This document shows positions 2,561 to 37,251 of a stretch of DNA of 37,251 nt, piece after piece. The DNA comes from Patescibacteria group bacterium (lineage in GTDB: Bacteria; Patescibacteriota; Patescibacteriia; JAACEG01). The notes below the pieces were generated by a model. It was not told the origin of the DNA and ran no database searches. It saw only the letters and a list, made by a program, of their open reading frames with translations. The position numbers and the translations under genes are program-made. Location: NCBI GenBank assembly GCA_034660655.1, contig JAYEJU010000037.1:1-37251 (forward strand). Direction: 5' to 3'. Numbering within the stretch: position 1 is the first letter of the stretch; every line of letters starts with the position of its first letter.

Positions 2561-4243
2561 TTACAATTTTTTAATCATATAAGTCCCTTCCAATTTATAC
2601 CCTAATTTTCTATAATATTCTCTTACGCCTATTCCTGAAATTACAGCTATTTTTTTAAATCTTTTTTGCTTTGCGATTTCTTCGGCTTTCAACATCAAGC
2701 GTTTTCCTAATCCTTTGTGCTGAACCGCTGATTTACCTTTACTATTTTTAATTGGAACTATTTTTCCATAAGTATGAAGCTCGCGTATTATTGCTGAATT
2801 TTTTAGCTCTGGAAAATTATTATAAAATCCCCCTACGCCCTTCAGCATCAAGTGCGGAGCAGACTCTTTGTCGAAGGGGGAAATATTATTTTTAAAATTG
2901 GGGATTCTTAAGCGCAAAAAGGCGAATAAAATTTTCCTGTCTTTTGATTCAAAACTTAAAAAATATTCTGTTCCGTCTCCAGCTTGATATTTTTCAATAA
3001 ACAATTTTAAATCATTTTGTTTTATTTCTCTATTTCTCGCTTCTCTGCAACGAATACATTTGCAAACAACGCCCTCGTCCAATAAACGTTTTTGCAGAAC
3101 TTGTCTTAAATTAGAAATTTTATTTCCCGCTTCTATGGAAACAGTCGGGATATCGCGGATTAATCTAATAATCCTTACATAATAAGGAACAGCCTTTTTC
3201 ATTTTTATTAATAAATTTTCTAATTGTTTATCTGCGTATGGCTTATATTTTCCACGTTTCCACCAGCCATATAATCGCGAACCTTTTACAACAGCGCATG
3301 GATAAATTTTTATTTGGTCAGGACGAAAATTTCTATTTGAAAAAATCTTTTTAAATAGTGCTAAATCTTTCGCAGGCGTTGACCCAGGCAAATTCGGCAT
3401 CAGATGATAGCAAATTTTAAATCCAGCCTGCCTTAATAATTTAGTCGCTCTAATAATATCTTTTATATCACTGCCTCTTCTGTTTAATTTTAAAATTTTA
3501 TCATCAATGGCTTGAACCCCAATTTCAACCCTTGTGCATCCTAAATTTCTAAAATTGATTATTTCTTTTTCATTTATATAATCAGGCCTTGTTTCTAAAG
3601 TTAAGCCCACTATTCTATATTTTGCTTTTTCATTTTTCTTCTGTTCTTTTATTAACTCTTTTTTTAATTCTTTAATTTTTAATTTCGAATAATTATTTCG
3701 TAATTCGTAATTCGTAATTCGTAATTCATTGTTATATTCATTAGCTGAACGAAAACATTCTTTAATAAACCAATATTGATATTTTTTGCTAAAAAACGAC
3801 CAAGTACCTCCCATCACAATCAGTTCAATTTTTTCAACATTATGCCCGTTTGCTTCCAACGCTTTAATGCGGATTGAAACTTGTTTATAAGGATTAAAAT
3901 TACAAATTATCGCGCGCATTACAGCGGGTTCATTTGAAAGATAACTTTTGGGAATATTTTTTTCAGTAGGGCAATAAACGCATTTGCCCGGGCAAGAATA
4001 AGATTTTGTTAAAACAGCAATCGGCGCCACGCCTGAAAGCGTTCTGATTTTTCTTTTTTTTAATATTTCTTTTATTTTGTCGCCTTGCTTATTGTTTAAT
4101 TTATTGTATAATTTTAATAATTCAGCGTTTGAAATTTGTTTCATTTTTTTCTGATAAAAAAATTCTCTTTTCAAACGCAAAAACTCCTCATTGTTTTGAG
4201 GATTAGCTTGGATTATTTTTTTAACTATTTTTTTTACTTCCAT
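2561..4243 (-). CDS. elp3: Elp3-family radical SAM / GNAT tRNA-U34 modification enzyme
   Basis: 560 residues, the usual Elp3 length. The radical SAM cluster motif is CxxxCxxC at C84, C88, C91 (SCPGKCVYC). The core contains the Elp3-typical IELIVMGGTWSFF, GLTLETRPDYI, VEIGVQAIDD and CYHLMPNLPGS segments. The C-terminus is a GNAT acetyltransferase domain with QHKGLGKRLM acetyl-CoA-binding and YYRKLGYKLEGTYMIK end motifs. Elp3 adds a carboxymethyl group to uridine 34 of tRNA. It is general in archaea and eukaryotes but scattered in bacteria, where it acts without the rest of Elongator. An Asn/Glu/Leu/Arg-rich insert near residues 172-186 is encoded by heptamer repeats. It is transcribed alone, convergent with the RHH gene. 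Confidence 0.92.
   Translation of the reverse strand: MEVKKIVKKIIQANPQNNEEFLRLKREFFYQKKMKQISNAELLKLYNKLNNKQGDKIKEILKKRKIRTLSGVAPIAVLTKSYSCPGKCVYCPTEKNIPKSYLSNEPAVMRAIICNFNPYKQVSIRIKALEANGHNVEKIELIVMGGTWSFFSKKYQYWFIKECFRSANEYNNELRITNYELRNNYSKLKIKELKKELIKEQKKNEKAKYRIVGLTLETRPDYINEKEIINFRNLGCTRVEIGVQAIDDKILKLNRRGSDIKDIIRATKLLRQAGFKICYHLMPNLPGSTPAKDLALFKKIFSNRNFRPDQIKIYPCAVVKGSRLYGWWKRGKYKPYADKQLENLLIKMKKAVPYYVRIIRLIRDIPTVSIEAGNKISNLRQVLQKRLLDEGVVCKCIRCREARNREIKQNDLKLFIEKYQAGDGTEYFLSFESKDRKILFAFLRLRIPNFKNNISPFDKESAPHLMLKGVGGFYNNFPELKNSAIIRELHTYGKIVPIKNSKGKSAVQHKGLGKRLMLKAEEIAKQKRFKKIAVISGIGVREYYRKLGYKLEGTYMIKKL
3699..3726 (-). repeat. Heptamer tandem repeat (CGTAATT x4) inside elp3
   Basis: Four exact copies of CGTAATT in a row, with partial copies on each side. 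Because 7 is not a multiple of 3, reading it through gives an alternating NELRITNYELR-type peptide. It stays open in frame and lies in a surface-like charged region between the radical SAM strands, so the protein probably tolerates it. Confidence 0.8.
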
Positions 4244-4348: not shown

Positions 4349-4934
4349 GCGCCACTTTTGACATTTTCAGTATTTTAAAACATAAATTCAGCAATAATCT
4401 CATTTGGCGTTTTATAATTTAAAATTTTTCTTGGCATGTTATTTAATAATTCTTGAATTTTATAAATATCTTTATCATTAATATTATCTAAATTTGTTTT
4501 TTTTTGGCAAATATTGCCTGATAAGTTTGTTAAAATTTTCATCTCCTCCTTTTTGCTAAGAACAATAAGGATCGCAGAAATAGGATTGGACATTGAAAAT
4601 TTCTTTTGTTTTTTCATGATTCGCATTTTCAGTTCCATTATCTCTTGTTATAGTTTTAATAAGATTATAAGATAGCAAAGATTCAATTGTTTTCTAAATG
4701 GCTTGTTCTATTTTTTTAGCTGTTTTGTCTTCGCATTTATGGATTCTGCAAAACATGCTTTTTCTTTCATATTGCGTTGATAGGATATCTTTTTTTGTAA
4801 AAATCATACTGTCTGTTTCCCCAATCGCCAATTCTTTGTTTTTTTATCATAGGCAATAATTAACCTGCTCTCCAAGGTTTGGTTAACCAAATTAATGTTA
4901 TTGCTTATGATAAATGATAAGTAAGAGTGGCGCA
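4349..4934 (-). mobile_element. IS30-family insertion sequence remnant
   Basis: The interval is bounded by imperfect inverted ends sharing TGCGCCACT (4349-4357) and AGTGGCGCA (4926-4934). On the minus strand it encodes decayed IS30-type transposase pieces. At about 586 bp it is roughly half the length of an intact IS30 element, and the N-terminal helix-turn-helix part is missing. Confidence 0.7.
4375..4850 (-). pseudogene. Degenerate IS30-family transposase
   Basis: Read across frames the minus strand gives the IS30 order: a GDW-type start, an ERKS segment, CEDKTAKKIEQAI followed by a stop, TITRDNGTENANHE containing the second Asp of the DDE triad, YFCDPYCS, NFNKLIRQYLPKKT, and the C-terminal LNNMPRKILNYKTPNEII, the standard IS30 ending. 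At least two frameshifts and one stop interrupt it, so no active transposase can be made. An open stretch of 87 codons (4375-4638) is only the tail of this gene partly read in the wrong frame. Confidence 0.85.
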
Positions 4935-4967
4935 ATAGGTTTTGAATGTAGTGACCAGTACACATTA

Positions 4968-4996
4968 TTGACATTGTATTTTTAATATGATATTCT
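4968..4996 (+). promoter_or_regulatory. Promoter of khpA
   Basis: TTGACA (4968-4973) and TATTCT (4991-4996) are 17 bp apart. Transcription would start near 5003. The leader then contains a hairpin with arms ACCAGTT (5010-5016) and AACTGGT (5032-5038). Confidence 0.65.
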
Positions 4997-5076
4997 TTTA
5001 TTTAGAAATACCAGTTAATCTAAAAAGGTCGAACTGGTCTAATATAGAAAATTTATTAAACTACTAAAAGAAATAT

Positions 5077-5480: not shown

Positions 5481-6161
5481 ATGAAATTTAATATTCTTAC
5501 AATTTTTCCTAATATTTTTGATTCCTATTTTTCAGAATCCATTTTAAAAAAAGCGCGAGATAAAAAGTTAATTAACATTAATATTGTTAATATCAGAAAC
5601 TTTACAAATGATAAGCGCAAAACAGTTGATGATTCGCCTTATGGCGGAGGCGCTGGGATGATAATGAAAGTTGAGCCAATTTATAAAGCATTGCGATCAT
5701 TAAAGAAAAAAAACAGGAAAAAAAGAAAAATTATTTTGTTAACTCCCACTGGAAAACAGTTTGACCAAAAAATAGCTAATAGATATTCTAAATTAGATGA
5801 GCTAACTTTTATTTGCGGACGATACGAGGGAATTGACGCCAGAATTGAAGAATTTACTGATGAAAAAATTTCTATCGGACCATATATATTAAATGGCGGA
5901 GAAATTGGAGCTATCACAATTATTGAAACAGTATCAAGATTAATCCCTAAAGTATTAGGCAATGAAAAATCTTTACAAGAAGAAACTTTTGCGTTAGAAA
6001 AAAAATCAAAAAAGTTTTTTATTGAATATCCGCAATATACGCGCCCTGAAATTTTTAAGATAAATAAAAAAAAATACAAAGCGCCAAAAATTTTGCTTTC
6101 TGGCGATCATAAAAAAATAGCAGAATGGAGAAATAAAAAATCTCGGCTCGTTGATCATTGA
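5481..6161 (+). CDS. trmD: tRNA (guanosine(37)-N1)-methyltransferase TrmD
   Basis: 226 residues, matching the family. It begins with FNILTIFPNIFDSYFSESIL and carries VDDSPYGGGAGMIMK. The SAM-binding trefoil knot is formed by ILLTPTGKQFDQ, FICGRYEGIDAR and ISIGPYILNGGE. The C-terminal RNA-binding part has QYTRPEIFK and LLSGDHKKIAEWR. TrmD methylates G37 next to the anticodon and prevents +1 frameshifting. TATAAT at 5472-5477 lies only a few bases before the ATG, too close to serve as its -10 unless the transcript is leaderless. The stop is TGA, which shows that TGA is not recoded here. Confidence 0.97.
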   Translation: MKFNILTIFPNIFDSYFSESILKKARDKKLININIVNIRNFTNDKRKTVDDSPYGGGAGMIMKVEPIYKALRSLKKKNRKKRKIILLTPTGKQFDQKIANRYSKLDELTFICGRYEGIDARIEEFTDEKISIGPYILNGGEIGAITIIETVSRLIPKVLGNEKSLQEETFALEKKSKKFFIEYPQYTRPEIFKINKKKYKAPKILLSGDHKKIAEWRNKKSRLVDH

Positions 6162-6190
6162 TTGACATTTTAATAAAAAAAAGTTAATTT
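6162..6190 (+). promoter_or_regulatory. Probable promoter of the tRNA-Arg / tRNA-His unit
   Basis: TTGACA (6162-6167) immediately after the trmD stop and TAATTT (6185-6190) are 17 bp apart. Transcription would begin about 7 nt before tRNA-Arg. An alternative -10 (TATTAT, just upstream of 6201) lies closer to the tRNA. Confidence 0.5.
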
Positions 6191-6203
6191 ATTTTTATTA
6201 TAC

Positions 6204-6275
6204 GCGCCCATAGTTCAATGGATAGAACACCAGCCTTCTAAGCTGGTTATGGGGGTTCGATTCCCTCTGGGCGTA
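6204..6275 (+). tRNA. tRNA-Arg (anticodon UCU)
   Basis: A complete cloverleaf: acceptor GCGCCCA/TGGGCGT with a G1-U72 wobble, D arm with TAGTTCAATGG, anticodon stem CCAGC/GCTGG with loop CTTCTAA (anticodon TCT), and T arm around GGTTCGATTCC. The 3' CCA is not encoded. It reads AGA and AGG, the main Arg codons in such AT-rich genomes. Confidence 0.96.
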
Positions 6276-6282
6276 CTGATAT

Positions 6283-6357
6283 GGTGGCTATAGCTCAATG
6301 GTAGAGCACTGGTTTGTGGTACCAGTGATGAGGGTTCAATTCCCTCTAGCCACCCCA
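6283..6357 (+). tRNA. tRNA-His (anticodon GUG)
   Basis: Acceptor GTGGCTA/TAGCCAC, anticodon stem CTGGT/ACCAG with loop TTGTGGT (anticodon GTG), T loop TTCAATT. An extra G at 6283 faces C73 at 6354, the G-1:C73 pair that identifies tRNA-His to its synthetase. Unlike tRNA-Arg just upstream, CCA is encoded (6355-6357). It lies 7 nt after tRNA-Arg and they should be cotranscribed. Confidence 0.96.
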
Positions 6358-6382
6358 AATGAAAAAGCAAATCTTGTATTTT

Positions 6383-7021
6383 ATGCTAACAAAAGTTATA
6401 AAAATAAATCCTAAAAACCCTGAAAAAGAAAAAATAAAAAATATAGTTAAAATTTTAAAAAAAGGAAAATTAGTCGCTTTTCCAACAGAAACAGTTTACG
6501 GACTTGGAGCTGACGCCTTAAATATTGACGCTGTAAAAAAAATATATTCTGTAAAAAAAAGACCTTTTAGCAAACCTCTGATAATTCATATCGCGAATAA
6601 AAAAGATGTTTATAAATTTGCCAAAAATATATCATCTGAAACAAAAATATTAATAAATAAATTCTGGCCAGGGCCATTAACTATTATATTTGAAAAAAAA
6701 GAAATAATTCCTGACATAATAACAACAAAAAAAATTGCCGTAAGAATGCCTAACAATAAAATAGCATTAGCGATTATTAAAAAATTTGGACATCCGATTA
6801 CGGCGCCAAGCGCGAATATTTCAAAAAAGGCAAGCCTTATTGACGCTAAAAAAGTAATTGAAAATTTGTCAGGAAAAATAGAAGCAATTATTGACGGTGG
6901 AAAATCAAAAATCGGTGTAGAATCTACTATTATTGATTTAACCGAACATCAACTTATTCTATTACGACAAGGCGCGATCCCTTTTGAAAAAATTAAAAAG
7001 GTTTTAAAAAAATTTTATTAG
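6383..7021 (+). CDS. tsaC: L-threonylcarbamoyladenylate synthase (Sua5/YrdC/TsaC family)
   Basis: 212 residues from the chosen ATG. An upstream in-frame ATG at 6359 would add eight residues but begins only 2 nt after the tRNA-His CCA, so 6383 (MLTKVIKINP, the usual family start) is preferred. The YrdC fold shows LVAFPTETVYGLGADA, KRPFSKPLIIHI, FWPGPLTIIFEKK, VAVRMPNN-like AVRMPNNK, ITAPSANIS and the terminal GVESTIIDLTE. The enzyme makes threonylcarbamoyl-AMP from threonine, bicarbonate and ATP for t6A37 of ANN-decoding tRNAs. Its partner TsaE is encoded at 15947. It lacks the C-terminal Sua5 domain, so it is the short TsaC form. It may be cotranscribed with the two tRNAs. Confidence 0.93.
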   Translation: MLTKVIKINPKNPEKEKIKNIVKILKKGKLVAFPTETVYGLGADALNIDAVKKIYSVKKRPFSKPLIIHIANKKDVYKFAKNISSETKILINKFWPGPLTIIFEKKEIIPDIITTKKIAVRMPNNKIALAIIKKFGHPITAPSANISKKASLIDAKKVIENLSGKIEAIIDGGKSKIGVESTIIDLTEHQLILLRQGAIPFEKIKKVLKKFY

Positions 7022-7072
7022 TCTTTATCTTATTATACAAATTGTCAATAGACATTGAAAAATGTATAAACA

Positions 7073-7102
7073 AAAAACGAATAAATATTTATTCGTTTTT
7101 TT
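7073..7102 (+). terminator. Rho-independent terminator after tsaC
   Basis: AAAAAACGAATAAAT is followed directly by its exact reverse complement, giving a long AT-rich palindrome that ends in seven T residues. The symmetry means it can act on either strand. Confidence 0.85.
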
Positions 7103-7269
7103 ATTTGATAAAAATTTTTTTGAAATAACTGGTTATTATACAAACTTTTGATTTTTTAATAACAAAAATTTGTATGTTATATAAACTCGTGATATATTGA
7201 AATTAACTATTCATAATTATATAATAATATAATAATATTTTTTACGCAAATAAAAATATTTAAAAATTT

Positions 7270-19253: not shown

Positions 19254-20429
19254 TTATATCAATCCACTTAAAAACTTATCAGCGCTGATTATTCTGATAT
19301 TATCCTGTAAAAAATCAACACCTGATTCTTTCACAACTTGATATGAAAACGGGATATTTAGTTTTTTGCTAAAATATTTTAAATGTTTGGAAACTTGTTT
19401 GTCAGACGATTTTGCTTCAACTGCTATCCATGGTTTTTTGTTCACTGTTATTAAAAAATCAACTTCTCTTCCTTCTATGTCCCGCAAAAAACGCAAATCA
19501 GTTTTATATCCTTCGTTATCATATAAAAAATGCGACATTTTTAAAAGATGCGAAGCAATTATATTTTCAAAACGCGAATCAATATTTTCAACTTGAGACC
19601 AATCCCATAAATACATTTTGGGCTCTTTTCGCAATGTTTTTATTAAGCTGGCTGAAAACGGATAAATTCTAAAATGATAATAAAATCTTTCTAAAATATC
19701 CACCCATAAAGAAACTGTTTTATGCGTTACTTGCAAATATTCCCGCAAAGAATTCAAAGACAAAAGCGATCCGACTTTTTCTTGTAAAATATCAACTAAA
19801 ACTTGCAAAGATGACAAATCGCGCACCTGCTCTACATCTCTGATGTCCTCTTTCACCAACCTGTCTAACCGCTCATTGTGAAAACGGCGCAATGTTCTTT
19901 TGTCTTTTTTAATAAACGGTTCTGGGAATCCTCCAAAATTTAACAAGTCTTTAAAATTTTTTTCTATGTTTTTAACATCTGGAAAAAATATTTCTTTAAA
20001 TATTTTTAAATCTGGCTTTAATTGTAAAACTTCAGCAACTGAAAAAGGATGAAGCCGAAAATAACGATACCTGCCCATTAAAGAATCACCGCCCTTGCGA
20101 TACAAATCAAGCCGCGCGCTTCCAGTGACTAAAATATTAAACTTGTCTTTATATTTATCAAACTCGCCTTTTAGATAATTTTTCCATTGTTTGTATTTAT
20201 GAATCTCGTCAAAAATAATCAATGCGGATTCTGCTTCAAATTTTCCCCGCAAAATTATTTTTCTGTCTTCGCGATTATCCCAATTAAGATAAGTGTATTT
20301 TTTATAATCCTTATCTCCAATATATTTGGCCAAAGTTGTTTTGCCGACTTGCCTTGGTCCGCCAATAAAAACCATTTTTTCTTTTAAATCAGAGGCTACG
20401 GAAGAATGCAAATATCTTTTTTTAATCAT
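19254..20429 (-). CDS. AAA (AAA_14) ATPase with DUF4143 domain, copy 1
   Basis: 391 residues. The N-terminal AAA_14 domain has Walker A GGPRQVGKTTLAKYIG (about 23-38) and Walker B ALIIFDEIHKYKQW, then LVTGSARLDLYRKGGDSLMGRY (sensor 1). The C-terminal DUF4143 domain has RDIEGREVDFLI and AVEAKSSDK, a PD-(D/E)xK-like arrangement. These proteins are common accessory ATPases in reduced genomes, with unknown substrate, and some may act in DNA-mobile-element or toxin-like functions. Its promoter lies within the adjoining 90-bp repeat. Another member is encoded at 35789-36970 with low similarity. Confidence 0.9.
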   Translation of the reverse strand: MIKKRYLHSSVASDLKEKMVFIGGPRQVGKTTLAKYIGDKDYKKYTYLNWDNREDRKIILRGKFEAESALIIFDEIHKYKQWKNYLKGEFDKYKDKFNILVTGSARLDLYRKGGDSLMGRYRYFRLHPFSVAEVLQLKPDLKIFKEIFFPDVKNIEKNFKDLLNFGGFPEPFIKKDKRTLRRFHNERLDRLVKEDIRDVEQVRDLSSLQVLVDILQEKVGSLLSLNSLREYLQVTHKTVSLWVDILERFYYHFRIYPFSASLIKTLRKEPKMYLWDWSQVENIDSRFENIIASHLLKMSHFLYDNEGYKTDLRFLRDIEGREVDFLITVNKKPWIAVEAKSSDKQVSKHLKYFSKKLNIPFSYQVVKESGVDFLQDNIRIISADKFLSGLI

Positions 20430-20459
20430 AATATTTTATTTTATTATTATTCATAAATA

Positions 20460-20549
20460 TTATACCATAGTCTAAAAAAAACGCAAGAATTTTCTACTTG
20501 GGTCAAAACTATCGGATTTTGTAAAATTCCATTATTCGCTTAATTTTTT
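20460..20549. repeat. 90-bp direct repeat, distal copy (ftsH 3'-end duplication)
   Basis: Identical to 25833-25922 except at one position (20472, C against T). On the minus strand it holds the last codons KKLSE and stop shared by dinD and ftsH, a large hairpin (GAATTTTAC pairing with GTAGAAAATTC) followed by a T run, and a promoter (TTGCGT, 16 bp, TGG-TATAAT) that points at the DUF4143 ATPase gene. With the other copy it brackets a 5.3-kb accessory island. Confidence 0.95.
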
Positions 20550-21368
20550 ATTTTTAATCATCTTAATATCCCTTGCTTCAATTTTCTTAATATGTTTTTC
20601 TGGTTTTAAATTTTCTGGCATAGTTCCACCAATTTCTTTAATGGTACTTCTTACTTTATTTCCTACATCAAAATGAGTCACATTAGCTTTTTCTTCTCCT
20701 GAAATTTTTTCTTTAATAATTTTTTCATCAGTCTGGGTAATACGAAATAAATTAGCCGCTAGTTCAGTAGAACCAGCCCTGTCCAAAATATTATCTTTGC
20801 CAATTCCTTTTTTTATTTTTATATCATCTGCTGTTAAGCCGTATAAACCTAAATATCCATAATTATTAAATTTGCCGAAATTACTTACGCCTGCTTTTTG
20901 CGCTGTTTTAAATAATTTTTTATTATGGTCTTTAACTTCTTTTCTAACAAATAATCTTTTTCTATCTTTATCCATTTGCTGAAATATTTCCTGCTTTCTA
21001 GTCTGTATCGCAAAATATGTCTGAGCTGTCGCAATTTCCTGCTTTCTTGGATCGCCATTTTGGGCGATTAAATAACAGGCATATCTTGAAAGATGATAAT
21101 CTTCTATTTTTCTAATCGCTTCTTTTGCTGTATCTTTAGCGATTTTTATCATTTTGAGTGCGTACACAAAATGATCCTTTACTTCTTGTTCTGAGCTTTC
21201 GCAAGCAATCTTAGCTTTTTTAATTGCATTTTCAAAATCACGCCAATTTTTATACCCCAAAAGAGGCATCAATTCTCGCGCTTCCCAATATTCCACGCCT
21301 TGCTTATTTATTTTTTTAATACTTTCAAAATTTTTATTCGGTCCTAATAATGTTATTTCTCTTGGCAT
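20532..21368 (-). CDS. dinD: DinD-like protein (BRO-N family)
   Basis: 278 residues. The N-terminus (EYWEARELMPLLGYKNWRDFENAIKKAKIACESS) is the BRO-N-type DinD start; the middle DYHLSRYACYLIAQNGDPRKQEIATAQTYFAIQTRKQE and the later GLYGLTADDIKIKKGIGKDNILDRAGSTELAANLFRITQTDEK are DinD signatures. DinD is SOS-induced in E. coli and inhibits RecA strand exchange in vitro. The last residues KKLSE and stop fall in the 90-bp repeat and match the end of FtsH, so the C-terminus is probably a fusion created by integration. It is the outermost gene of the island. Confidence 0.88.
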   Translation of the reverse strand: MPREITLLGPNKNFESIKKINKQGVEYWEARELMPLLGYKNWRDFENAIKKAKIACESSEQEVKDHFVYALKMIKIAKDTAKEAIRKIEDYHLSRYACYLIAQNGDPRKQEIATAQTYFAIQTRKQEIFQQMDKDRKRLFVRKEVKDHNKKLFKTAQKAGVSNFGKFNNYGYLGLYGLTADDIKIKKGIGKDNILDRAGSTELAANLFRITQTDEKIIKEKISGEEKANVTHFDVGNKVRSTIKEIGGTMPENLKPEKHIKKIEARDIKMIKNKKLSE

Positions 21369-25720: not shown

Positions 25721-25832
25721 AAAATACTATTATTTTTATATTATTTAATTATAGAATAGCAAAAATAACCAAAAAGTCAATAAAAAATATTTTATAAAAT
25801 TAGATGATATTTTTAATTACAAATCCAAAATT

Positions 25833-25922
25833 TTATACCATAGTCTAAAAAAAATGCAAGAATTTTCTACTTGGGTCAAAACTATCGGATTTTGTAAAAT
25901 TCCATTATTCGCTTAATTTTTT
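25833..25922. repeat. 90-bp direct repeat, proximal copy (ftsH 3' end)
   Basis: The genuine 3' end of ftsH with its terminator-like hairpin. It matches 20460-20549 at 89 of 90 positions. Beyond both borders the sequences diverge at once, which marks the exact edges of the duplicated unit. Confidence 0.95.
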
Positions 25923-27761
25923 GTTTGGATTTAAATCAGCTTCTGTTTTCTTTTTTTTAAACAAACTGTCAAATTCTTTTCTTTCTATTGTCTCTTTCTT
26001 TAATAAAATCTTTACTATTTCTTCAATTTTTCCTTTATTCTCTTTAATGATTTTTTCAGCCGTGGCGCAAGCATCATTGATCATTTCAGATATTTCCAAG
26101 TCTATTGCTTCTGCTGTTTTTTCGCTATAATCTTTTTGTTCGTGAATTTCTTTGCCTAAAAAAATCATTTCTTCCTGCTCGCCATAAGTGCGTGGCGGAA
26201 GATTTTTAGACATTCCAAATTCCGTAATCATTTTTTTGCATAATTTAGTCGCTTGCCTTAAATCATTTGTTGCTCCAGTAGTTATTTCATCAAAATGAAT
26301 TTTTTCTGAAATATAGCCTCCTACTAAAACAGCAAGCTCATCAATAAATTTGGAACGAGTATTAAACTTTCTGTCTTTTGACGGCAGTTTAATCGTGTAG
26401 CCTGCTGCTTTACCGCGGGAAATAATAGAAACTTTATGAACTGGGTCCGGATTTGGCAATTTTTTTGCCACTAATGCGTGCCCTGCCTCATGATAAGCTG
26501 TTATCTTTTTTTCTTCTGGCCCTAAAATATGGCTCTTTCTTTCTGGCCCTATTAGAACTCTTTCAATGCTATCAAGAATCTCCTGATGTCCGACTTTTTT
26601 ATTATGGCGACGGACAGTAAGTATTGCTGCTTCGTTTAATAAATTTTCTAAATCAGCCCCTGAAAATCCAGGAGTTCTTTCCGCTATTTCTCTTAAAGAA
26701 ACATTTTTTTCTAAAGGCTTTTTAAAAGAATGCACTTTTAAAATTTCTTCTCTTTCGCCAATATCAGGCAAATCAATCATTACTTGTCTATCAAATCTTC
26801 CAGGGCGTAAAAGCGCTGGGTCTAAAACATCAGGCCTGTTAGTGGCCGCTAAGACTATAACATTGTCATTTTGGTCAAAACCGTCCATCTCAACTAATAT
26901 TTGATTTAAAGTCTGTTCGCGTTCATCATGCGAACCGCCCAAACCAGCTCCGCGCCTTCTGCCAACAGCGTCAATTTCATCAATAAACAAAATTGACGGC
27001 GCGTTTTTTTTAGCTTTATTAAACAGATCTCGAACACGAGCCGCTCCAACTCCTACAAACATTTCAACAAATTCTGAACCAGAAATATGAAAAAAAGGTA
27101 CGCCTGCTTCACCGGCGACAGCGCGCGCAAGCAATGTTTTTCCAACACCCGGAGCTCCAAGAAGCAAAACCCCTTTTGGAATTTTAGCGCCTAACTCAGT
27201 ATATTTTTTATGATCCTTTAAAAAGTCAACTATTTCAAAAAGTTCTTCTTTTGCTTCTCTCGCGCCTGCGACATTTTTAAAAGTTACCTTTTCTCCAGCG
27301 CCTTTTACATTTTTAGCCTTGCTTTTCCCAAACATCATTGCTTTTTGATTCATTCCTTGAACTTGCCTCATCATAAAAAAAATAAATAGTCCAATTAAAA
27401 GCAAAGGAATTAAATATGGCAAAAGACTGCTCATCCAAAAACCAGCCCCTGATTCATCTTCAACAACAATATTTACTTTTACTAATTTTTCAGTAGAAAC
27501 GCCAAAATTTTTAAACATTGCTGAAACTGATTCAACGCCCTCTTTTTGCGCTTTTTGTTTTTCATCTGACAATAAAATAATTTCCAATTTATTGCCTTTA
27601 ACAACAATTTCTTTAACCTTTTCTTGATTAACTTCATCAACTAATTTAGCAATGCTGATTTTTTCAACTTTTTGCTCTGGCTCAGCGTATAAGCTAATAA
27701 ACCCCGCCACCATTAAAATAACCAACAAAACAATTAAAAAATTTTTTAAAATATTTTTCAT
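25905..27761 (-). CDS. ftsH: ATP-dependent zinc metalloprotease FtsH
   Basis: 618 residues from ATG at 27761; an upstream GTG at 27773 would add four residues and is less likely. Two transmembrane helices (about 5-24 and 112-130) flank the periplasmic domain. The AAA module carries Walker A GAPGVGKT (202-209), [11 protein letters not shown], the second-region-of-homology [20 protein letters not shown] and the pore motif FVGVG. The protease zinc motif is HEAGH (424-428). FtsH degrades misfolded membrane proteins and short-lived regulators. The C-terminal tail ends KKLSE within the 90-bp repeat. It is divergent from the glycosyltransferase gene. Confidence 0.97.
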
Positions 27762-31712: not shown

Positions 31713-31892
31713 AGACTTAATAGACTTATTGCGTAATTAGTTTTGTGACGAAATTTTCAAATTTTGAGGCATAATTTTTCAAACAATTTTTTTAGCCTAC
31801 CCTTAGGTAAGGTAAAAAAATTTAAGAAAAATTTGACCAAAATATGAAAATTGCAGTAAAAACTAATTACGCGATAAGTCTAACAAAAGTCT
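31713..31892. mobile_element. MITE-like foldback element
   Basis: About 180 bp between the glycosyltransferase gene and lgt. TAGACTTATTGCGTAATTAG at the left end (from 31721) is mirrored by the right end finishing at 31882, and imperfect pairing continues inward over roughly 75 bp per arm to a small CTTA loop between CCTACC and GGTAAGG. An extra AGACTT/AAGTCT pair lies outside (31713, 31887). It has no coding capacity. A folded transcript terminator is possible, but the length of the arms and the terminal motif fit a miniature inverted-repeat element better. Confidence 0.7.
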
Positions 31893-31931: not shown

Positions 31932-32780
31932 TTATCTGACACGACAAGCATGGTTGTTTCTTATTCTTATTATTAATAATATCACGATAAAAATAAAAAG
32001 CAAGCAACTTAAAACTTGTGGAAAACGCAACCCAAAAATAAGGGCTGTTTCATCAACGCGTATAAATTCCATTACAAAACGAATAACAGAGTAATTTAAT
32101 ATGTAAATTAAAAAAATATTGCCGTTAGATAATATTTTTAATTTTGCCTGCCTGCCGGAGAGGCAGGAATTTGCGATTTTTTTCTTGTGCAAAAAAAGCA
32201 AAAAAATAAAATTTAAAAAATTCAAAATAGACTCATATAAAAACGCGGGATGAAAATACTCAAAATTTTGATACACTGAAAATGATTTGTTAAAACTGTC
32301 TATTGGAATTCCCCATGGCAAGCTGGTTGAAAAACCAAATAACTCTTGATTAAAATAATTTCCCCAACGACCGATTGCCTGTCCCAAAGCTAATGATACG
32401 GCGACAATGTCAGCGTTTAACAAAAAATTCATTTTGTGTTTTTTGGAATAAAAATAGCCTGCTATAATTCCGCCAATAATCGCGCCGTGAATTGCCAGCC
32501 CTCCTTGCCAAAATTTAAAAACGCTTAACGGATGCTGAATATAATAATTCGCTTCTATAAATATATGATAAATTCTAGCTCCTAAAAGTCCGAACACAAT
32601 TATATAGACAGCTAAATCAAAAATTTTTTGCTGTTTAATCTTATATTTTTTGCCTAATTTCTGCCCAACAATTATTCCAACTATTATTGCCAGGCTAATA
32701 AAAAAACCATACCAATAAAATTGAAAAAATCCAAAAGAAAACATTATAGGATCTGGGTGATAAGTATGAATAAACATCAT
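31932..32780 (-). CDS. lgt: Prolipoprotein diacylglyceryl transferase Lgt
   Basis: 282 residues with seven transmembrane helices. The family motifs are present: FYWYGFFISLAII near the start, GGLAIHGAIIGGIIAGY with the conserved His, and the signature GQAIGRWGNYFNQELFG with the essential Arg and Asn; the C-terminal block has FVMEFIRVDE. Lgt attaches diacylglycerol to the lipobox Cys of exported lipoproteins. An extra segment (NSCLSGRQAK) near residue 210 is encoded by a GC-rich palindromic repeat. Its start overlaps the stop of the xer gene by 1 nt. Confidence 0.95.
   Translation of the reverse strand: MMFIHTYHPDPIMFSFGFFQFYWYGFFISLAIIVGIIVGQKLGKKYKIKQQKIFDLAVYIIVFGLLGARIYHIFIEANYYIQHPLSVFKFWQGGLAIHGAIIGGIIAGYFYSKKHKMNFLLNADIVAVSLALGQAIGRWGNYFNQELFGFSTSLPWGIPIDSFNKSFSVYQNFEYFHPAFLYESILNFLNFIFLLFLHKKKIANSCLSGRQAKLKILSNGNIFLIYILNYSVIRFVMEFIRVDETALIFGLRFPQVLSCLLFIFIVILLIIRIRNNHACRVR
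32147..32167. repeat. GC-rich palindrome variant inside lgt
   Basis: CCTGCCTGCCGG, then AGAGGCAGG: a near-copy of the 20-bp palindrome at 7629-7648, in frame within lgt and translated as SCLSGRQ. It falls in a cytoplasmic loop between transmembrane segments, where an insertion should be tolerated. Confidence 0.8.
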
Positions 32781-33724
32781 TATTTGTTATGAAATTTTTT
32801 ATGAATTTCTTTTAATCTTTTATTTGTAATATGCGTATAAATTTGCGTTGTGGCGATTGATGAATGCCCGAGCATAGTTTGCACACTGCGAATGTCAGCG
32901 CCGTTCGCGAGCAAATCCGTCGCAAAACTGTGCCGGATAATATGAGGAGTCACTTTTTTTGTCAGCCCGGCAATTTTAGCGTATTTTAAAGTTAATCTTT
33001 CAATTGAACGCGCGTTTAAAGGAAGCTCATCTTTATCGCTTAATCGTTTGGATGCTTTATCATGGCGGACAAATAAAAAAGGCGACATATCAATCCGTTT
33101 TTCCAAATATTCTTTTAAATATTTTTTTGCTTGGTCTGATAAAAAAACAATTCTCGGCTTATTTCCTTTTCCTCGCACGGTAAATTCGTCTTTTTTTAAA
33201 TTGATTGATTCTTTTGTCAAATTAGCCAGCTCTGACACGCGCAAACCTGTTGAAAAAAGCAATTCCAAAATCGCTTTGTCTCTTTTTTTAATAACATCTT
33301 GGCCGTCTGTTTCTAACGGAGCTTCTAACAATTTTTCCAAGTCTTCTTTTTCTAAAAATTCAATTATATGCTCGCCCAATTTCGCGAGTTCTATTTTTTC
33401 AGGAGCCAAACTTTTTATGTCCCGCTTGGAAAGATATTTTAAAAAATTTCTCAACGCGATAAGATGATAATTTTGAGTTGATTTTTTTAAATTATCGCCT
33501 TTAAAATTTTTCTGCCGATTTAACCAAAGACGAAATTTTCTGACACTGTCCGTTGTTATTTCATCAGCTGATTTTATTTTCGTAAATTTTATAAATCTTT
33601 CTAAATAAAATCTATAATTGCGGACGGTCTTTAAAGAAGACCCTTTCTCAATTTCTAAATACTCCAAAAAATCATTTATTAAAATTTGTATTTCTGTTTT
33701 TAGTTTATTATTATTTTTATTCAT
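32780..33724 (-). CDS. Xer-type tyrosine recombinase
   Basis: 314 residues. The N-terminal core-binding domain has FLEYLEIEKGSSLKTVRNYRFYLERF. The catalytic domain carries the first Arg in FSTGLRVSELANL, the Lys in VRGKGNKPR, HIIRHSFATDLLANGADIRSVQTMLGHSSIATTQIYTHI with the H-x-x-R, H and nucleophilic Tyr. The sequence and length suit a chromosomal XerC/D/A enzyme that resolves dimers at dif. It is coupled to lgt, and it is the only intact tyrosine recombinase in the window, so it is also a candidate for integration at the gene 3' ends described here. Confidence 0.92.
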   Translation of the reverse strand: MNKNNNKLKTEIQILINDFLEYLEIEKGSSLKTVRNYRFYLERFIKFTKIKSADEITTDSVRKFRLWLNRQKNFKGDNLKKSTQNYHLIALRNFLKYLSKRDIKSLAPEKIELAKLGEHIIEFLEKEDLEKLLEAPLETDGQDVIKKRDKAILELLFSTGLRVSELANLTKESINLKKDEFTVRGKGNKPRIVFLSDQAKKYLKEYLEKRIDMSPFLFVRHDKASKRLSDKDELPLNARSIERLTLKYAKIAGLTKKVTPHIIRHSFATDLLANGADIRSVQTMLGHSSIATTQIYTHITNKRLKEIHKKFHNK

Positions 33725-34800: not shown

Positions 34801-34815
34801 ATATTAATTTTATCT

Positions 34816-34900
34816 CCAAAAACTCAACCCCTGCTCCTTCCCCCACTTCTCAAAAGCAAAAGTGATATCGTCTAAGTCGTGTTTATCATAAATGAAATTA
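34816..34900 (-). pseudogene. Gene 3'-end relic, 'FEKWGKE' copy 1
   Basis: On the minus strand an open tail reads FIYDKHDLDDITFAFEKWG then KEQGLSFWR and stop. No start or upstream body belongs to it. It is about 80% identical over some 50 bp to the tail at 35170-35235. The parent gene is not identified. Confidence 0.6.
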
Positions 34901-34932
34901 AATTAAATTAAAAACCCTTATTTTAAGCCTAT

Positions 34933-35169
34933 TTAAGAACTTTTTGAATTTATTTTCAAGTGCCTTGATAATAAATCTTTCTCTAAAATAGTACCAGGCT
35001 TAATATAATAACTTCCTTTTTTTGATTTGCCAGCTTGCTCAAGAATTCCGCTATTTACCCATTGTCCAAACAATCTTGACATTTCAACGCTATCTGTAAT
35101 ATCAGTTATCTCACGAGCTTTTTGTGGTTTAATATAATGATTTTCATAATTTATTTTTAAAAAATTATT
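34933..35169 (-). pseudogene. Winged-helix-like C-terminal fragment
   Basis: An open frame whose plausible part begins near FLKINYENHYIKPQKAREI and continues TDSVEMSRLFGQWVNSGILEQ to SKKGSYYIKPGTI, the look of a C-terminal winged helix as found in Fic or AAA-type accessory proteins. The frame upstream of this (to 35310) reads through a 3'-end relic in a different frame and is not meaningful. No start is seen, and the body is missing. Confidence 0.45.
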
Positions 35170-35235
35170 ATCTCCAAAACCCCAACCCATTTTCCTTCCC
35201 CCATTTCTCAAAAGCAAAAACGATAGCGACCGATT
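35170..35235 (-). pseudogene. Gene 3'-end relic, 'FEKWGKE' copy 2
   Basis: The minus strand reads SVAIVFAFEKWGKENGLGFWR and stop, parallel to copy 1 at 34816-34900. Its upstream frame runs back to about 35330 through low-complexity sequence with repeated TTGCAAGT sites. A third, shorter match (GAGAAGTGGGG-AAGG) lies at 35683-35699. Confidence 0.6.
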
Positions 35236-35264
35236 TGCGACTAAAAATTTTCTTAGTTGCAGGC

Positions 35265-35312
35265 TTGCAAGTAGGAAAATCTCCACTTGCAAAAAACAGG
35301 ATATTTGCAAGT
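35265..35312. repeat. Three TTGCAAGT sites at 20-bp intervals
   Basis: TTGCAAGT (35265), its inverse ACTTGCAA (35285) and TTGCAAGT (35305) begin exactly 20 bp apart, and each contains the palindrome TTGCAA. Two helical turns of spacing fit a protein-binding array, and neighbouring inverse copies can pair as a hairpin. Confidence 0.6.
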
Positions 35313-35327
35313 AAAAAATATTTATAA

Positions 35328-35690
35328 TTACATTATTATTTTTATCAAATTATCAAAAAAATAGGTTCTATGCTGGGATTTTTTATCATCAGAAAAAATT
35401 TTTTCATCAGACAAAAATTTCAAAATCCTAAAAGAAGCGTTTTCTTTTATTCTTGTATGTCTTCTGAAATCGCCAGAGTCAAAAATTGGCATAGAAAAAA
35501 TAAAATCTAAAACTTTAATAGAATTTTTTGGCGTTGGAATATTGATAATCTTTTCTTTTGTTCTATTATAAAGATTTAAAATAGATTCTACTTTCTGGGT
35601 ATTTATTTCTGATTGTTTTTCTACAGCAACAAGAAAAAACTTTATCCAATTTTCCCAGTCATTATTTTTTGAAATACCTTCCCCACTTCT
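35328..35690 (-). pseudogene. Fic-family protein, C-terminal fragment
   Basis: The frame contains NDWENWIKFFLVAVEKQSEINTQKVESILNLYNRTKEKI, the linker after the Fic catalytic domain, followed by a winged helix (VLDFIFSMPIFDSGDFRRHTRIKENASFRILKFLSDEKIF and QHRTYFFDNLIKII). The Fic motif HPFxxGNGR and everything N-terminal are absent. Fic enzymes AMPylate proteins and often form toxin-antitoxin pairs, but this remnant cannot. The first 11 codons come from another sequence (the third FEKWG-like match). Confidence 0.75.
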
Positions 35691-35712
35691 CAAAAACAAT
35701 ATTATATAATTT

Positions 35713-35787
35713 TTACATCTCGTCTAAAGTTTCTATCCCCAATAAATCAAGCTTTTTAAAATTGTTTGCCCAACGCAGTAAATTTTA
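35713..35787 (-). pseudogene. Relic of the argS 3' end
   Basis: On the minus strand IYCVGQTILK, a one-base deletion, LDLLGIETLDEM and stop, against IYCVGQTIKKGLDLLGIEVLDEM in argS at the right edge of the window. DNA identity is roughly 80% over about 75 bp, including third-position changes, so the copy is old or came from another species. It starts directly behind the stop codon of the DUF4143 ATPase gene. Confidence 0.85.
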
Positions 35788-35788
35788 T

Positions 35789-36970
35789 CTAAAATATCTT
35801 TTTAATTTTTTCTATTGTTTGAGATAATGATCCTATTGTTAAATCGCCATATTCTTGTTTTGAATCATATGCGTTTTCATAATACGGAACAACAATACAA
35901 GTGTGATCGGGTTTAATATTTTTAATTGCGGATATGCAGGATTTTGTAAGAGATGGAGTTTTTGATGTTTTTATTTCAATCGCTATAATCTTATTATTTT
36001 TTTGCAATATCAAATCAACTTCTTCGCCATTACTCGTGCGATAATATGATCCTTCACAATCATCAAAAACAGATAATAAATTTTCAATAACATAGCCTTC
36101 AAAAGAATTTCCGTACAATGGATGCGCTATTAATTCTGATTTATTATGAATTCTCGCAACCACATGTAATAATCCCGAATCTCTAATATACCACTTAGGA
36201 CTTTTTATAAGCCGTTTTTTGCTATTTTTAAAATATGAAGGAAGCCGTCTAACAAGATACATTGACTCTAATGTATCAATATAGCTTTTTATAACCACCT
36301 CGCCCACAGAAAAATTTTTTGCCAGTTCAGCATAATTTTCTCTCTGCCCGTGATAATGCGCTAAAAATCTTAATAACTTTAAAACAACCACACTATCAAT
36401 TTTTCTAAATTCCTGAATATCTCTTTCAATAATATTTTTCAAATAAGCGTCTCTCCAAATAAAACTACTTTTATTATCAACGGCTAAATAGCTTTCTGGA
36501 AAACCGCCCCTAACCCAATGACTTTTAATGTCCAAACTTAGCACTTCCAAAATATGAAATGGGGTCAATTCTATATAGCCTATTCTCCCCGCCAAACTTT
36601 CCGATGTTTGTTTTATTAATTTTGGAGAAGCAGAACCTAATATAAAAAACCGACCGTTTTTCCTATTTTTATCAATCACGCCGCGCATTGTCGCAAAAAT
36701 ATGCGGCAATTTTTGAATCTCATCCAAACACACAATTTTGTCTTTATGAGTATTAAAAAAAGACAAGGGGTTTTCAGTAACTTTCGCTAAATCATCATAT
36801 TTTTCCAAATCAAAATAAGCAACATTCTCAATATCTTTTAAAAAATGTTTAATCAAAGTGGATTTCCCGCACTGTCTCGGTCCTAAAATTCCAACCGCGG
36901 GAAAAATATTTTGGTAGCTTGCTATTTTTTGTCTAACAAACCTTTTAAGATAAGTTTTATGCATTTCCAT
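35789..36970 (-). CDS. AAA (AAA_14) ATPase with DUF4143 domain, copy 2
   Basis: 393 residues. Walker A GILGPRQCGKSTLIKHFLK (about 27-45), Walker B KIVCLDEIQKLPH, sensor FFILGSASPKLIKQTSESLAGRIGYIELTPFHILEV; C-terminal DUF4143 with YYRTSNGEEVDLILQ and IAIEIKTSK, a nuclease-like acidic pattern of unknown activity. It is the only intact gene between the real argS end and the argS relic, and has its own consensus promoter. Relative to the copy at 19254-20429 it shares only family motifs, so the two were acquired separately rather than by local duplication. Confidence 0.9.
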   Translation of the reverse strand: MEMHKTYLKRFVRQKIASYQNIFPAVGILGPRQCGKSTLIKHFLKDIENVAYFDLEKYDDLAKVTENPLSFFNTHKDKIVCLDEIQKLPHIFATMRGVIDKNRKNGRFFILGSASPKLIKQTSESLAGRIGYIELTPFHILEVLSLDIKSHWVRGGFPESYLAVDNKSSFIWRDAYLKNIIERDIQEFRKIDSVVVLKLLRFLAHYHGQRENYAELAKNFSVGEVVIKSYIDTLESMYLVRRLPSYFKNSKKRLIKSPKWYIRDSGLLHVVARIHNKSELIAHPLYGNSFEGYVIENLLSVFDDCEGSYYRTSNGEEVDLILQKNNKIIAIEIKTSKTPSLTKSCISAIKNIKPDHTCIVVPYYENAYDSKQEYGDLTIGSLSQTIEKIKKIF

Positions 36971-36993
36971 ACTTTAACTATAGATTTACATAA

Positions 36994-37022
36994 ATATTAC
37001 TTTAATAAATTATTTTTGTCAA
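36994..37022 (-). promoter_or_regulatory. Promoter of the second DUF4143 ATPase gene
   Basis: On the minus strand TTGACA (37022-37017), 17 bp, TAATAT (36999-36994). Transcription would start about 20 nt before the ATG at 36970. Confidence 0.75.
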
Positions 37023-37096
37023 GTATTTTTTATTTCTGCGTAAAATTATCCCAATCAAGATTAGAAACAAACAAATCTAAATAAAATTTTTATTTT

Positions 37097-37251
37097 TTAC
37101 ATCTCGTCCAATACTTCTATTCCTAATAAATCAAGCCCTTTTTTGATTGTCTGTCCAACGCAATAAATCAAAAGCAAGCGGGCTTTTTTTGTTTCTTTTT
37201 TAGCTGTTAAAACAGGGCAGATGTGATAAAAACTATGAAAAGATTTTGCCA
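37097..37251 (-). CDS. argS: Arginyl-tRNA synthetase, C-terminal end only
   Basis: The window cuts the gene; the last 50 codons are present and read AKSFHSFYHICPVLT, a Lys/Glu-rich turn, RLLLIYCVGQTIKKGLDLLGIEVLDEM and stop. This is the end of the DALR anticodon-binding domain of ArgS, with the typical LAxAFHxFYxxCxV start and GLDLLGIxxxxxM ending. ArgS charges tRNA-Arg, one of which is encoded at 6204. The 3' end is duplicated about 1.4 kb downstream. Confidence 0.93.
   Translation of the reverse strand, partial: AKSFHSFYHICPVLTAKKETKKARLLLIYCVGQTIKKGLDLLGIEVLDEM

Follow-up and report, generated by a model that had tools for sequence, protein, structure and literature searches.

The window analyzed here is a whole contig of 37,251 nucleotides (JAYEJU010000037.1, referred to below as C37) from a Patescibacteria group bacterium (assembly GCA_034660655.1), whose 932-kb genome is assembled into 65 contigs and is about 98% complete. 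At the right-hand end of the window, read along the direction of transcription, the end of argS, the gene of arginyl-tRNA synthetase (stop at 37097), is followed by 108 bases with a promoter-like sequence, the gene of a DUF4143 ATPase, five bases that separate the stop codon of this gene (35791-35789) from a second, decayed copy of the argS end, and this relic itself (Table 1). On the 3' side of the relic lie older debris, then xer (33724-32780) and then lgt. The argS gene is cut by the contig end: the last 155 bases of the window are its end on the reverse strand, with the last 50 codons at 37249-37097, and the body of the gene sits on another contig, C49, whose positions 1-127 coincide exactly with positions 37125-37251 of the window. 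An exact overlap of 127 bp is as expected where an assembler cuts a graph with 127-base words; its location inside argS marks a branch of the assembly graph at the insertion site, possibly reflecting strain variation. A third contig with the argS end, which would represent an alternative allele at the C37/C49 break, was not found in the genome, the only matches being C37 and C49.

The original prediction, made from the letters of the window, was that the end of argS recurs behind the ATPase gene in a copy about 80% identical and with one base deleted, and this has been borne out. In a local alignment, positions 35783 to 35694 pair with positions 37168-37079 with a score of 73, whereas the best of 200 dinucleotide-preserving shuffles reached 36, so that the chance match against which the prediction had cautioned is not the case. 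The coding part of the relic comprises 71 nt aligned with the final 72 nt of argS, identical at 58 of 72 positions and with one base missing, and the similarity extends for about 18 nt past the argS stop codon, which the relic retains, into the 3' flank. A search of the whole 932-kb genome with the relic as the query matched these two places only (E = 4.9e-14). An assembly duplicate is excluded by the position of the relic, about 1.4 kb within the contig, and by its identity to argS of only about 80%. Between the two copies of the argS end, the DUF4143 gene stands alone, as had also been predicted, with no recombinase gene beside it.

Table 1. Features of the window that bear on the duplicated gene ends
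Feature	Position	Strand	Basis
Duplicated ftsH end and spacer, behind a Bro-N gene and ahead of the second DUF4143 gene (19254-20429)	20410..20553	-	Alignment
ftsH end and spacer, functional copy	25783..25926	-	Alignment to 20410-20553: 86% identity in 146 bp, of which about 95 bp are nearly identical
xer-type tyrosine recombinase; ancestral downstream neighbor of argS, not cassette-borne	32780..33724	-	Pfam
Relic 1 of the second gene end (ending in HDLDDITFAFEKWGKEQGLSFWR and a stop), then a 205-aa ORF	34805..34885	-	Further copies elsewhere
Relic 2 of the second gene end, then an unrelated ORF	35163..35228	-	85% identity to 34806-34870; 95% to C36:1444-1501
Second gene end, partial relic bordering on the argS relic (...FEKWGK..., type I restriction-modification-like); short, tentative	35677..35701	-	Comparison with 34805-34885
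argS 3'-end relic; coding part 35713-35783, one base missing	35694..35783	-	Alignment, shuffles, three-way comparison
DUF4143 gene: AAA_14 ATPase, winged-helix-like middle, PD-(D/E)XK nuclease; PADLOC PDC-S01	35789..36970	-	Pfam, PADLOC, AF2 model
Left end of the cassette, with promoter-like TTGACA-18-TAATAT at 37023-36994	36971..37078	-	Sequence, by eye
Functional copy of the duplicated segment (argS end and 18 nt of flank)	37079..37168	-	Local alignment with 35694-35783
argS 3' part (arginyl-tRNA synthetase); rest on C49	37097..37251	-	TIGR00456 match, model positions 519-569

The DUF4143 protein

The protein encoded by the cassette matches the Pfam families AAA_14 (2.5e-28) and DUF4143 (8.2e-40), both above the curated cut-off. 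Hits to several PDC-S01 models of PADLOC (best 2.6e-86) were obtained with each of the two DUF4143 proteins of the window, whose architecture is that of this system (AAA_14 plus DUF4143, COG1373). The AF2 model (pLDDT 83.6) shows an AAA core and a helical or winged part, and D319, E332 and K334 sit in the helix-strand arrangement at its C-terminal end. The Walker A motif GPRQxGKS is conserved and the PD-(D/E)XK motif, D319...E332-x-K334, is intact, its three residues being invariant or nearly so in 42 sequences. The best fold matches of the model are the archaeal ATPases SSO1545 (2fna) and PABY2304 (2qen), with TM scores of 0.47-0.51, which likewise have an AAA-type ATPase followed by a winged helix but share only 15-17% identity over the alignment; no solved structure for a whole DUF4143 protein was found in the structure search. 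Intact reading frames are present in 77 of 78 sampled DUF4143 genes, and the phyla are mixed in their tree. Four further DUF4143 matches were observed in the same genome as the window (C53:786-1226, C45:9204-9647, C9:8898-9329 and C62:6647-6859), one of which has in-frame stops and one of which is a below-cutoff fragment; at the C9 match, 31 bp from the start of the downstream gene are present twice.

PDC-S01 has been reported among the most frequent defense candidates of bacteria and archaea, mostly outside defense islands. It has been described as an ATPase fused to a PD-(D/E)XK nuclease, the fourth most common defense across prokaryotes, which spreads by transfer and for which experimental proof is pending (PMC12988326), and COG1373 is among the genes common to different genera in gut mobilomes (PMC10782964). 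The DUF4143 protein is probably a stand-alone anti-phage ATPase-nuclease, and is treated here as a candidate for this role.

Cassette-free relatives and the origin of the relic

In G004, a genome of the same family, the argS stop codon is followed after about 21 bp by the xer homologue, with no cassette, which provides the empty argS 3' junction that the prediction called for in a relative. In G001, of the same genus, argS and xer are separated by a gene of 161 codons that looks NUDIX-like by eye, and in G003 this place is occupied by an insertion sequence and another gene. Therefore, argS-xer is the ancestral order, and different lineages have received different inserts at this site. The predicted insertion of a one-gene cassette at the argS 3' end, with a copy of that end brought in or left behind, is supported by the empty junction, and it appears very likely that a unit of about 1.3 kb, consisting of a promoter and the DUF4143/PDC-S01 gene, was inserted there.

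The divergence of the relic had been attributed either to an argS of another species or to the age of the event, and a comparison with argS genes of other lineages had been proposed as a way to trace a foreign source. Compared with argS of about 30 genomes, the relic scored highest with its own genome (73), followed by the congener G001 (69), against 12-33 for other genera, which rules out a distant argS as its source. In a three-way comparison of the relic, argS and the G001 gene over 72 sites, the relic and argS agree against G001 at 8 positions; the 6 private changes of argS all fall at third codon positions, and the 8 private changes of the relic are spread 3/3/2 over the codon positions and look neutral. 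Because of these shared states and this spread, the relic is understood as the argS end of the same or a very nearly related lineage, evolving without selection while selection continued to act on argS itself. On this evidence from the alignments, the relic is an old copy, either home-made or derived from near kin; the part of the proposal that concerned age thus stands, and the part that invoked another species, taken as another lineage, is not supported. The best explanation of the timing is that the cassette was inserted after the split of this lineage from the sampled congener.

Direct repeats around DUF4143 genes in other genomes

The prediction that DUF4143 genes would be found beside duplicated gene ends was followed up with a scar test, defined as the best same-strand local alignment between the 800 bases upstream and the 300 bases downstream of a gene, with a threshold score of 45 that was set after the argS case had been seen. 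Among Patescibacteria of the same class, this score was reached at 15 of 66 DUF4143 genes, compared with 1 of 153 control ORFs in the same loci. A second set was drawn with a narrower clade, the full alignment being too diverse, and therefore samples one subfamily; for its relatives, which come from named genomes across many phyla, the counts were 14 of 78 and 5 of 192 controls. Pooled, direct repeats flank 29 of 144 DUF4143 genes and 6 of 345 controls (Fisher p ~1e-11, odds ratio 14), a strongly positive outcome; at a score of 60 the pooled counts are 21 and 3, and none of 660 trials with shuffled flanks reached 45. The repeat arms are 30-157 bp long and about 74-100% identical, and about half of the pairs are ends of neighboring genes. 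About 80% of the DUF4143 genes lack such a footprint, and not every repeat is a gene end, those at loci L097 and L098 and several of the second set, for example, being dispersed elements; given these elements in the second set and the post hoc threshold, the rate of true scars is below 20%. At L097 (G003:C9), two DUF4143 genes are separated by a repeat that has a terminator-like hairpin and occurs three times (897-1041, 2932-3121 and 4857-5066), possibly through serial insertion.

The duplicated gene differs from locus to locus and is not argS each time. The 3' ends of genes are duplicated at argS and at L070, L077, L061, L108, L121, L128, L120, L059, L192 and L239 (the insert at L121 also has a PIN gene, and this locus falls outside the 800-base test), and 5' ends are duplicated at L125 (81 bp, 97.5% identity), L094 (31 bp, identical) and L221 (ABC transporter, 73 bp); the DUF4143 gene of L118 is flanked by a tRNA-Leu relic. 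Of the 29 cases, 18 have a downstream copy that starts 0-25 nt past the DUF4143 stop codon, and usually 12-190 nt separate the end of the upstream copy from the start codon; therefore, the inserted unit consists of a promoter, the gene and its stop. No shared terminal sequence was seen by eye when the junctions of about 20 cassettes were set side by side, and neither an integrase nor a common attachment core was found in the cassettes examined. At some loci, the differences between the copies are mostly synonymous and point to a related donor (synonymous to nonsynonymous codon differences of 11:3 at L070, 5:1 at L121 and 10:1 at the Bro-N locus L263); no synonymous bias is present at L125, L077, L061, L221 and L192.

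Gene-end duplications around other genes

The scar test was also positive for 4 of 29 Bro-N genes and 2 of 28 PIN/VapC genes. GxxExxY genes were rejected as a second example, as the only positive among 25 was due to an internal repeat of the gene itself. DUF4143 genes are flanked by direct repeats more often than the three comparison accessory families pooled (29 of 144 compared with 7 of 82, p 0.02). At two PIN loci, L283 and L287, VapC-type genes lie between duplicated gene 3' ends, and at L287 the relic begins right after the PIN stop codon, with differences that by eye are mostly synonymous.

Two further cases were found in the window. The two copies of the ftsH end lie 5.4 kb apart, around a 5-kb insert with a nuclease, a DUF262-like and a Bro-N gene. 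This insert is absent from G001, which retains the spacer and, of the second DUF4143 gene, only the final 38 bases; because of this arrangement, the insert is recent and was not made by a DUF4143 gene inside it. The end of a second gene is repeated about five times, three copies lying in the window at 34805-35701, one of them (35677-35701) tentative, and two on contig C36 (L041) at 1430-1501 and 2367-2418; each copy is followed by a different reading frame. Its fragments have no Pfam match and are type I restriction-modification-like by eye, and the copies look like a stepwise array of inserts. Since the Bro-N and VapC genes, the ftsH insert and this restriction-modification-like array all show the scar, it is not exclusive to DUF4143.

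Further repeats were noted in the window and on C49. The repeat 14-163 / 1543-1699 was rejected as another cassette, as it consists of two SAM riboswitches: SAM-I riboswitches at 13-118 and 1542-1647 are 1.5 kb apart and 88% identical over 157 bp. On C49 (L040), inverted repeats (5836-5907 and 7008-7083) surround a single 339-aa gene (5968-6987), perhaps another one-gene unit, and the segment 5760-5839 of the same contig recurs at 7126-7205 of the window. Long imperfect intergenic palindromes of about 165-170 bp were observed at 31721-31882 of the window and at 2162-2333 of L040.

DUF4143 units on plasmids

A 1.36-kb DUF4143 unit with the same limits and 92.6% identity is found in unrelated contexts on Agrobacterium and Rhizobium plasmids (L311 2889-4249 and L318 2501-3861), with neither a direct repeat nor a terminal inverted repeat found at it. 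The left end of this unit holds ATGCATTTCAAATGCAT, and its last 10 bases, TTATGGAACT, are also present at the pyc end of a plasmid without the unit. Only 1 of 11 plasmid-borne DUF4143 genes has direct repeats, and the plasmid copies therefore add no support to the association with scars. On Acinetobacter plasmids (L314, L322), a DUF4143 gene takes a slot between an HNH gene and DUF4236, beside BREX-type genes, that is held by a Fic gene on another plasmid; this neighborhood is only circumstantial evidence for a candidate role in phage defense. No close relative of the plasmid DUF4143 gene tried as a query was found in E. coli genomes.

How the cassette was inserted

The manner of insertion is inferred from the duplication, from the empty junction in a relative and from the like arrangement at many DUF4143 genes, all three of which are direct observations. 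The explanation favored here, with moderate confidence, is a homology-anchored insertion at argS. The cassette would arrive in DNA of a close relative that carries a stretch of the end of the neighboring gene, and recombination would take place at this homologous end, either by a single crossover of a circularized piece or by homology-facilitated illegitimate recombination (HFIR). The argS end would be kept or restored upstream of the cassette, and the resident end would be pushed behind the cassette, where it would decay. At L070, L121 and L263 the copies have diverged as working genes do, which would be expected if one of them came from a related cell and not if both arose in place, and the mix of loci with and without synonymous bias would be covered as a whole by homologous gene ends from donors of varying closeness. 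In agreement with this explanation, the arms vary in length, unlike a fixed target duplication, and the same footprint accompanies Bro-N genes, VapC genes and the ftsH insert without a DUF4143 gene inside. The genome also encodes the DNA-uptake channel ComEC, and Patescibacteria have been described as competent (PMC12455944). In E. coli conjugation, partial lacZ-end duplications of 109-950 bp have been attributed to single crossovers of shortened circles (PMC3240628), and the immunity-gene arrays of Vibrio have been explained via homology-facilitated insertion (PMC5361080). Several observations count against the homologous-end explanation: the 3/3/2 changes of the argS relic are no less compatible with an identical copy that arose in place than with a donor end; synonymous bias is absent from the five loci named above; the right-hand limit of the cassettes is tighter than an illegitimate junction should give and suggests a unit with defined ends; DUF4143 genes exceed other accessory families in scar frequency; and the majority of them carry no footprint. 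No donor of the incoming DNA was found.

An accident of replication or repair that duplicates the target or switches templates, independently of DUF4143, followed by the spread of the filled allele through homologous recombination, which would mix the copies, is an unlikely alternative, yet one that accommodates identical-type and diverged-type copies together, as well as the variable arm length and the involvement of several gene families. It requires two processes, however, and predicts neither the tight right-hand boundary nor the excess of DUF4143.

This boundary and this excess would be accounted for if the DUF4143 protein moved its own gene, the ATPase-nuclease making a widely staggered break that is joined and filled in to give a long target duplication of variable length, so that the gene would be a new one-gene mobile element. 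The discrete plasmid unit, with the same ends in the unrelated contexts of Agrobacterium and Rhizobium, and the tight limit of the cassettes speak for such self-mobilization; the conservation of D319, E332 and K334, the intact reading frames of nearly all the sampled genes and the resemblance of the argS relic to a decayed identical copy are also in keeping with it. On the other hand, no terminal sequence shared among the cassettes was seen, similar footprints occur without DUF4143, several copies had already diverged while functional, and the plasmid unit has no direct repeat. The fixed-length, identical target duplication that characterizes transposons is not what is seen here, the arms being of 30-157 bp and about 74-100% identity. 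We regard self-mobilization as rather improbable. The more general proposal that DUF4143/PDC-S01 ATPase-nucleases form a class of one-gene mobile elements, which make staggered cuts at gene ends, leave target duplications of 30 to >100 bp, have no terminal repeats and are retained for host defense, is doubtful.

Duplicated gene 3' ends around an insert are a hallmark of integrase-type islands, and the tyrosine recombinase gene 2 kb away could suggest a classical element of this type that attaches at the 3' ends of genes, as islands do in tRNA genes and guaA, the relic being its attR. This is very improbable, as xer is the ancestral neighbor of argS in cassette-free relatives, which rules it out as the integrase of the element, the cassette itself has no recombinase gene, the target differs at each locus and is sometimes a 5' end, and the copies do not amount to a short core of identical sequence. 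For the argS relic, a match by chance, a dispersed repeat or an artifact of assembly, which the AT-rich sequence, the exact overlap of the two contigs that share argS and the dispersed repeats among the wider survey might have suggested, has a negligible probability and is refuted by the score of the relic, by its match to only two places in the genome, by its argS stop codon and flank and by its position well inside the contig.

Comparison with known systems

The homology-anchored insertion resembles HFIR and single-crossover duplications in that one homologous end anchors the foreign DNA, the insert being joined here to a second copy of the gene end; it differs in the tight limits of the cassette and the over-representation of one gene family. 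HFIR as described usually deletes recipient DNA at the far end. The islands known from gene 3' ends (tRNA genes, guaA) likewise lie between an intact gene end and a partial copy, whereas the present inserts have no integrase, consist of one gene, vary in target and are bordered by long and diverged copies. In the type VI immunity arrays of Vibrio and orphan Rhs tips, new modules displace older gene ends stepwise (PMC5361080), to which the segment 34805-35701 may be compared; in those arrays, the end that is displaced is part of the same toxin-type locus, whereas here a housekeeping gene is left whole and an unrelated gene is inserted. In an integron cassette, a promoterless gene with an attC hairpin stands next to an integron integrase; the cassette behind argS has a promoter-like sequence. 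No published account of the insertion of PDC-S01/DUF4143 genes or of their insertion scars was found in the literature searched, in which subscription journals and preprints are thinly covered, and as far as this literature goes, the gene-end duplications around PDC-S01 genes are new.

Implications

These results suggest that a very common candidate defense gene spreads as a cassette of one gene, with duplicated gene ends left at its sites of insertion. The insertion scar offers a way to count and date acquisitions of PDC-S01, to find empty sites and to test self-movement against recombinational uptake. It also carries a warning for annotation, since short argS-like or ftsH-like tails in such genomes are scars and not pseudogenes of second copies. 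Similar scars at Bro-N genes, toxin-antitoxin genes and ftsH point to a general way in which very small genomes may add single genes behind essential genes that remain unbroken.
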